Below are positions 36,155-37,552 of a stretch of 37,552 nt of DNA, piece after piece. Position 1 is the first letter of the stretch. Each line of letters opens with the position of its first letter. Both the position numbers and the translations under genes were made by a program. This DNA comes from Candidatus Nanohalarchaeota archaeon (GTDB taxonomy: Archaea; Nanohalarchaeota; Nanosalinia; Nanosalinales; Nanosalinaceae): assembly GCA_022729355.1 (NCBI GenBank), contig JALDAN010000004.1, positions 1 to 37,552 of the forward strand, given 5' to 3'. The notes beneath the pieces are model-generated. The model had not been told where the DNA came from and ran no database searches. It saw only the letters and a program-made list of their open reading frames with translations.

Positions 36155-36907
36155 GTGAGACTCGAGAACAGCTTCATACTTTTCCCCGGTATCGGCCAGA
36201 AGACAGAGAAGAAGCTCTGGAAAGACGGCGTGAAACACTGGGATCATCTAGAAGATTCTTCCCGTTACGACAGCATAAAGCAGGATATGGAGAAGGCCCG
36301 TAAAAATCTTGAAGTAGGTAACTCCATGTATTTCGGAGAAAGACTGCCGAATAAAAGCCTCTGGAGAGCATACAGCAACTTCAAGGAAGATGTCACGTTC
36401 TTCGACATCGAGACAACAGGCCTCTCCCCTGAAAGAAACAAGACTACGACAGTATCCTTCTACAGAAACGGCGAGTCAAAGACTTTGATCCGTGGACAGA
36501 ATCTGACACGTGAAAGACTTCAGGAAGAAATCTTCGAGTCTTCAATGCTTGTATCATTCAACGGAAAGCGTTTCGACGCTCCTTTCCTTGAGAAAAACTA
36601 TAATCTTGATATTGAGAAGCCTCATATTGACCTGATGTACCCATGTAAAAGACTTGGCTATACTGGAGGCCTCAAGAAGATAGAGAAGCAGCTTTCGATT
36701 CAAAGAGAGCTTGAAGATCTGGACGGTAGGGAAGCGATAAGACTGTGGAAGAAGTACGAGAACAAAGGTGACGAGGAGGCCTTGAGGAAGCTTGTGCGTT
36801 ACAATCAGTACGATGCCGAGAATCTTCAGGATCTTCTTGAGATAGTTCGTGAGAAGTTGGTGAGCCAGGTGGCTGACAGGCCTGAAGAGTTTCTTCCGAA
36901 GACTTAA
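36155..36907 (+). CDS. RNase H-like 3'-5' exonuclease (YprB/RNase_H_2 type)
   Basis: VTFFDIETTGLSPERNKTTTVSFY...MLVSFNGKRFDAPFLEKNYN...YNQYDAENLQDLLEI. GTG start. Confidence 0.85.
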   Translation: MRLENSFILFPGIGQKTEKKLWKDGVKHWDHLEDSSRYDSIKQDMEKARKNLEVGNSMYFGERLPNKSLWRAYSNFKEDVTFFDIETTGLSPERNKTTTVSFYRNGESKTLIRGQNLTRERLQEEIFESSMLVSFNGKRFDAPFLEKNYNLDIEKPHIDLMYPCKRLGYTGGLKKIEKQLSIQRELEDLDGREAIRLWKKYENKGDEEALRKLVRYNQYDAENLQDLLEIVREKLVSQVADRPEEFLPKT

Positions 36908-36940
36908 AAGGGTGGAAAGATAATTAGTGGTTGAAGAAAA

Positions 36941-37260
36941 ATGGCCTTGGTTAATACTACTTCACCCGCTGGAAACATGTGGATGGATCTGGTGAGGTGC
37001 ACCCATACCGAAAACAAGGCCAAGGCTTTCTCCATTATTAATTATCTGCGCGAGTAAAGTGGGATGAAGTCTTGGCCAAATTTGAAGTGGCCAATGACCG
37101 ACCGCAATTACTCCAAAACAATTCTGTGATAGTCTTTCGTTCTACCTCTATGAAACACTGGGGCGAAGGGCTTGGGCGGTGTACTGCTTTGCAAGGTAGT
37201 GCGTCGCCCTCGACACGTTTTCAAAATATTTGATTGGACGGAAAAGTAACGGAACAAGAC
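36941..37260 (+). ncRNA. Candidate structured non-coding RNA, family unassigned; boundaries and strand approximate
   Basis: No ORF of 60 aa or more. Helices: GCCTTGG(36944-36950)/CCAAGGC(37020-37026); ACTTCACC(36959-36966)/GGTGAGGT(36991-36998); GAGTAA(37052-37057)/TTACTC(37108-37113) enclosing TTGGCCA(37072-37078)/TGGCCAA(37088-37094); 14-bp G.U-containing hairpin 37174-37209. Confidence 0.45.
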
Positions 37261-37286
37261 TAAACATGAGGTGCTAAACACAACCA

Positions 37287-37403
37287 ATGGATGCGAACAC
37301 CCGAAACTTCGAGGCAGAGCTTCAGGCTCAGCACGAGGACGTCACGCAGGCAACAGCAGAAGTCCACCCTGAAGCAAGCGTCGTAACAGCTACAGCACTC
37401 TAA
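37287..37403 (+). CDS. Possible 38-aa small protein
   Basis: MDANTRNFEAELQAQHEDVTQATAEVHPEASVVTATAL with upstream GAGGTG. Confidence 0.35.
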   Translation: MDANTRNFEAELQAQHEDVTQATAEVHPEASVVTATAL

Positions 37404-37465
37404 AAATGAATGAATACTCAGAAGAAAAAAGATAATGCCGGATGATTAAGAGGCCTCTATCTCCT

Positions 37466-37552
37466 TTACTCCTGACTCTGGTATGCTGCAGATTCAAAAG
37501 CAGCCCAGCCGTTAGCCATGGAATCCAGCATGGATGTGAAGGACTTGGCCGG
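37466..37552 (-). CDS. C-terminus of an unidentified protein (cut by window edge)
   Basis: Minus frame reads PAKSFTSMLDSMANGWAAFESAAYQSQE-stop. Confidence 0.5.
   Translation of the reverse strand, partial: PAKSFTSMLDSMANGWAAFESAAYQSQE

Follow-up and report, generated by a model that had tools for sequence, protein, structure and literature searches.

Leader-peptide attenuators are a textbook mechanism of bacteria. We know of no established archaeal counterpart and our literature search found none. In archaea, the leader of the l7ae mRNA has been argued to be a switch on the following rules: a G:C pair next to the bulge blocks kink-turn folding by metal ions alone, and every kink-turn analysed folds with L7Ae (PMC6298567). 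Furthermore, a conserved intergenic RNA of 266 nt from a nanohaloarchaeon was found in halite metatranscriptomes (PMC7002113). Here, we analysed a stretch of 37,552 nucleotides from a Candidatus Nanohalarchaeota archaeon (hereafter, the window), in which positions 36941-37260 had been proposed, from the sequence alone, to encode a structured RNA.

Comparison with related genomes indicates that this locus is a previously undescribed, highly conserved folded RNA linking two very small genes; no published description of it was found in the literature search. Heavily covarying homologs support the original prediction that a new structured RNA, assigned to no family, lies downstream of the exonuclease gene. 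On the + strand, the folding energy of the 320-nt region is -103.5 kcal/mol (z -2.58), a value equalled by 1 of 100 shuffles, while the - strand folds no better than shuffles (z -0.17). The proposed 14-bp hairpin with G.U pairs was found at exactly 37174-37209 and further helices are present besides it. Conversely, the stretch is not gene-free as had been thought, since it contains a conserved 38-codon ORF (ORF1, 36941-37057) and is followed by a second one starting at 37287 (ORF2). With two conserved small ORFs in the unit, a purely non-coding RNA is unsupported as stated. Protein-like substitution in homologs, which had been named as evidence against an RNA, is found in ORF2 and partly in ORF1; the RNA between them still covaries, which indicates that the locus is both protein-coding and a structured RNA. 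The 568-bp gap without AGGCCT sites, formerly taken as a signal, is uninformative, 12 of the 150 gaps in the window being at least that long. AGGCCT itself has 151 copies in the whole window for about 7.5 predicted from base composition, i.e. a 20-fold excess.

The element is present once per genome in 17 of the 19 genomes of the nanohaloarchaeal family, the named relatives being Nanohaloarchaea (SG9, M3_22, NHA25 and others), and in 10 out of 10 family genomes that combine at least 90% completeness with low contamination. At the DNA level, a search across the family clearly matched 12 further genomes. The ORF2 profile matched 17 of the 19 genomes and the ORF1 profile 16 of them by score; in G014 and G015, ORF1 can also be recognised by eye. 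A covariance model trained on 17 sequences retrieved one copy in each of the corresponding genomes (E 3e-16 to 4e-24); these being its training sequences, what it adds is that there are no second copies and none elsewhere. The same model showed that the element is absent from 9 genomes belonging to four other families of the class, and no viral contigs carrying ORF2 were found. Alignment of the relatives brings out both ORFs, the promoter box, the kink-turn, the hairpins P4 and P5 and a set of alternative helices, and the order of the parts is always TATA, ORF1, kink-turn, P4, P5, Shine-Dalgarno (SD) and ORF2. In G005, the element is cut by a contig end. G013, which belongs to the same genus as the window, has about 730 nt after its intact exonuclease gene with neither the RNA nor either small ORF (G013:C7:10124-11595, L112), an absence that could be a loss, a relocation or an assembly gap. 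The exonuclease gene of G014 is split over two frames (G014:C1:122328-123037), owing to a frameshift or a sequencing error.

An AT box precedes the ORF1 ATG by 30-41 nt in all 17 full-length relatives and in G005. In the window, it is the TATA box CTTAAAAG (36903-36910, + strand; conserved box 36904-36909), which overlaps the exonuclease stop codon; the TATA-like AAGATAATTA noted previously is not the conserved box. Given the usual spacing of archaeal TATA boxes, transcription is expected to begin a few nt ahead of ORF1. G003 and G004 have a divergent NUDIX-like gene (by eye) as their upstream neighbour, which indicates that the unit is independent of the exonuclease gene. No terminator was found by a scan of the + strand. 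Downstream of ORF2, the - strand of the window (37450-37552) carries a convergent gene ending in AAFESAAYQSQE, and a similar sequence is also seen by eye 3' of ORF2 in G003, G004 and G012. The last 141 bases of the window (37412-37552) are identical to G000:C29:1-141, so the two contigs probably join.

ORF1 (36941-37057, + strand, 38 codons) is open in all 18 readable genomes, with a length of 35-43 codons. Its stop codon (TAA, TAG or TGA) is found at the same place in all genomes except G014, in which the frame is a few codons longer and reaches the kink-turn UGA. ORF1 has a pN/pS of 0.72, compared with 1.12 and 0.88 for the shifted frames, which contain stops in all sequences, and differences at the three codon positions are 0.32/0.39/0.41, indicating that conservation is stronger for the frame than for the peptide. 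ORF1 is therefore likely to encode a leader peptide close to the transcript's 5' end, with a weakly constrained sequence and a conserved frame and stop. It has no match in Pfam or NCBIfam and its sequence matches in the PDB are at chance level. The mean folding z of the ORF1 region over 17 species is -1.4.

One base after the ORF1 stop begins a kink-turn hairpin (37059-37105, + strand; columns 2-14 and 42-51 of alignment A3). All the standard parts of such a motif are present: a short C-stem (GUGG/CCGC), a 3-nt bulge (GAU), tandem G.A/A.G pairs (GA/GA) and a second stem, whose strands are segments 3 and 4 (see below). Pairing of the C-stem is complete (100%) in the 17 sequences, one of its pairs showing double changes, and GA is found on both kink-turn strands in 17/17 sequences. 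The base pair adjoining the bulge is G:C in 17/17 sequences. According to the rules cited above (PMC6298567), folding of this kink-turn should hence depend on L7Ae, as in the l7ae leader switch. An L7Ae gene is found in 18 of the 19 family genomes. A reading frame starting from an AUG within the kink-turn (MKSW...) was rejected as a gene, since it has 21 codons in the window and stops after 6 in G007.

The kink-turn is followed by two hairpins on the + strand. P4 (37131-37172) exposes an anti-SD-like loop, CCUCUAUGAAACAC, at 37145-37158; its arms pair better within species (-16.4) than across species (-10.8), a difference reached in 0/5000 permutations. P5 (37174-37209) is the 14-bp hairpin and carries a terminal GCU-loop-GGU motif; over 12 pairs, 97.5% of its cells are paired and 9 pairs show double changes. 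Covariation was assessed in a plain MAFFT alignment (A3) on 19 pairs, namely the kink-turn C-stem, the first pairs of the second stem and P5. Of these cells, 95.7% are paired and 12 of the 19 pairs changed on both sides, with 61 double-change cells compared with 15.6 after shuffling and at most 21 in slid controls. Averaged over 17 species, the folding z is -3.8 for the region from the kink-turn to P5.

Four segments of the + strand appear able to form alternative helices: segment 1 (GGCCUUGGU, 36943-36951) and segment 2 (CAAGGCCAAGGC, 37015-37026) lie inside ORF1, whereas segment 3 (GUCUUGGCC, 37069-37077) and segment 4 (GGCCAAUGAC, 37089-37098) belong to the kink-turn hairpin. Segment 2 can pair with segment 1 or 3 and segment 3 with segment 2 or 4, so that the neighbouring helices 1:2, 2:3 and 3:4 are mutually exclusive. 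For all three, pairing within species exceeds pairing across species (0/5000 permutations each); when one species per genus was kept, the counts were 8/5000 for 1:2, 6/5000 for 2:3 and 0/5000 for 3:4. In the negative controls, 1:3 and 2:4, same-species pairing was not significant in the permutation test, and 1:4 was intermediate (106/5000). For instance, segment 2 reads GGUCAAGGC in G001 and G002 and is matched by GCCUUGACC in segment 3, while most other genomes combine GGCCAAGGC with GCCUUGGC. As these permutations ignore the phylogenetic tree, they provide support rather than proof for the alternative helices. The locus therefore has the conserved, mutually exclusive helices overlapping a leader ORF that typify attenuators, with helix 2:3 lost in two species, G008 and G014, in which it is broken.

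ORF2 (37287-37403, + strand, 38 codons) is clearly protein-coding by its codon pattern, with a pN/pS of 0.47 and codon-position differences of 0.37/0.26/0.55, which rules out a noncoding-only reading; its length is 37-39. It encodes a conserved small protein (xNANTRxFEAELQAQ...TATAL), in which A3, N4, F8, E11, L12, A14 and L38 are invariant among the 12 sequences of alignment A2. No match was found in Pfam or NCBIfam, nor any convincing relative in the PDB, where sequence matches are at chance level; AlphaFold gives two helices with a pLDDT of 66, too weak for a fold search. An SD, GAGGTG in the window (37268-37273, + strand), precedes ORF2 in all relatives. Of the start codons, 10 are ATG, 5 ATT and 2 ATC. 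In G001, the stretch from the last in-frame stop to the conserved ATT contains no in-frame ATG, GTG or TTG, and none occurs in the 20 nt before the ORF2 start of G002. Non-AUG initiation is therefore hard to avoid in these two genomes. In G006 and G015-G018, an in-frame GTG inside the SD is an alternative start, which has no SD of its own. Counted by eye, 6-8 nt separate the SD from ATT/ATC starts, and its distance to ATG starts is mostly 8-13 nt.

Our preferred reading, which we hold tentatively and at somewhat less than even confidence, is that the locus is a translation-responsive leader whose L7Ae-dependent kink-turn controls a new small protein, so that the switch would sense both translation and a ribosomal protein, L7Ae. 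The steps predicted by this reading are a single transcript for the whole unit, binding of L7Ae, switching and regulation of ORF2. The short, independently transcribed unit would comprise the ORF1 leader peptide and a conserved RNA fold of about 230 nt, which would jointly set the translation of the 38-residue ORF2 protein. With a ribosome at the ORF1 start, segment 2 would be free to join segment 3, at the expense of the kink-turn; without it, helix 1:2 would form and the kink-turn would be able to fold upon L7Ae binding. Segments 1 and 2 would be covered by translating ribosomes, and a terminating ribosome should open the kink-turn that starts one base past the stop codon. It is this layout that favours a translation-sensing leader for ORF2. 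The state of the kink-turn domain would then be relayed via P4 and P5 to the ORF2 SD. This output step is the weakest part of the model: the CCUCU of the P4 loop complements the SD, but this pairing exceeds that of cross-species pairs at a borderline level (245/5000, about 5%) and gives the step no direct support. Points against the model are that 2:3 is not kept in G008 and G014 and that the element is missing in G013.

The kink-turn and the strong conservation of P4 and P5 would also fit a stable RNP acting in trans, in which the folded part would be an L7Ae-bound small RNA and ORF1 and ORF2 extra coding of a dual-function transcript. We consider this explanation possible, if on the unlikely side. 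The fold between the ORFs is indeed the most conserved feature of the locus and covaries strongly, many non-coding RNAs are bound by L7Ae (PMC5539422) and the 266-nt intergenic RNA from halite (PMC7002113) may be the element described here. However, ORF2 and its SD are always downstream, at 188-250 nt, and the location of two segments within ORF1 and of the kink-turn against its stop is the layout expected for translation coupling. A two-gene small-protein operon, in which the intercistronic hairpins would merely protect or process the mRNA without any switching, appears quite unlikely. Both ORFs are conserved, and hairpins between cistrons are common mRNA stability elements; nevertheless, the precise conservation of the kink-turn, the conserved loops and the alternative pairings exceed what stability would need.

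A diverged RNase P, SRP, H/ACA or C/D guide RNA, a diverged housekeeping RNA having been one suggestion of the original prediction, is highly improbable. No Rfam family reached its gathering score anywhere in the window, and relaxing E up to 10 gave chance matches only, the best being a CRISPR repeat model at E 0.31. In agreement with the original prediction, neither RNase P nor SRP RNA is at the locus, and both RNAs were located elsewhere in the genome, so that these two candidates were rejected. Archaeal RNase P RNA (RF00373) has no match in the window and its copy is on contig C27, where GAGGAAAGTCC and ACAGAATCAGGCTTACG are readable by eye although the Rfam model gives only 20.7 bits; archaeal SRP RNA (RF01857), absent at the locus, has a copy on C43 (132 bits). 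This RNase P RNA of the lineage (L003, about 656-1110; 20.7 bits) is hence missed by the Rfam archaeal model at its cut-off despite its readable motifs. Downstream of it (L003, about 1410-1500), a tRNA-like sequence with an apparent intron is seen by eye. Concerning guide RNAs, the two strands of the kink-turn (AUGA / C(C or U)GA) are similar to boxes C and D, but this resemblance stops at the kink-turn, whose C-stem is located at the ORF1 stop codon, and no pseudouridylation pocket with an ACA tail was seen by eye; both guide types were therefore rejected.

The element adds two small proteins without family assignment to the conserved gene set of the lineage and is a ready candidate for a new Rfam family. 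Moreover, its AUG/AUU/AUC series at one gene offers a direct handle on start-codon selection in archaea. Like tmRNA, it is a compact single RNA with a short ORF whose first codon is not necessarily AUG, but it has an SD and no tRNA-like domain. ARAGORN found no tmRNA and SmpB is absent from all 28 genomes of the class; a tmRNA-like reading is thus ruled out by the lack of both the tRNA-like domain and SmpB. With the l7ae mRNA leader (PMC5539422, PMC6298567), the element shares a kink-turn bearing the signature of protein-dependent folding (G:C at the bulge) before a translated gene with an SD. However, its kink-turn follows a leader ORF, the gene that would be controlled differs from l7ae, and the element has two additional hairpins as well as alternative helices. 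In addition, the SD of ORF2, about 160 nt from the kink-turn, is not occluded by the kink-turn stem as would be expected in an L7Ae-regulated leader. With bacterial ribosome-sensing attenuators of the trp/erm type, it shares a leader ORF and the mutually exclusive helices 1:2, 2:3 and 3:4; unlike them, it is archaeal, has no terminator hairpin and U run after segment 4, carries segment 2 inside the leader ORF and uses a kink-turn as its 3:4 helix. It could even represent a new class, i.e. an archaeal translation-sensing switch based on competition between a leader ORF and an L7Ae-dependent kink-turn for one RNA segment, which would set how a new small protein is translated, its start drifting between AUG and AUU/AUC, initiation fidelity maybe being part of the control; this broader proposal is doubtful. 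The element joins an attenuator-like layout to the archaeal kink-turn/L7Ae system, in a DPANN lineage with reduced genomes.
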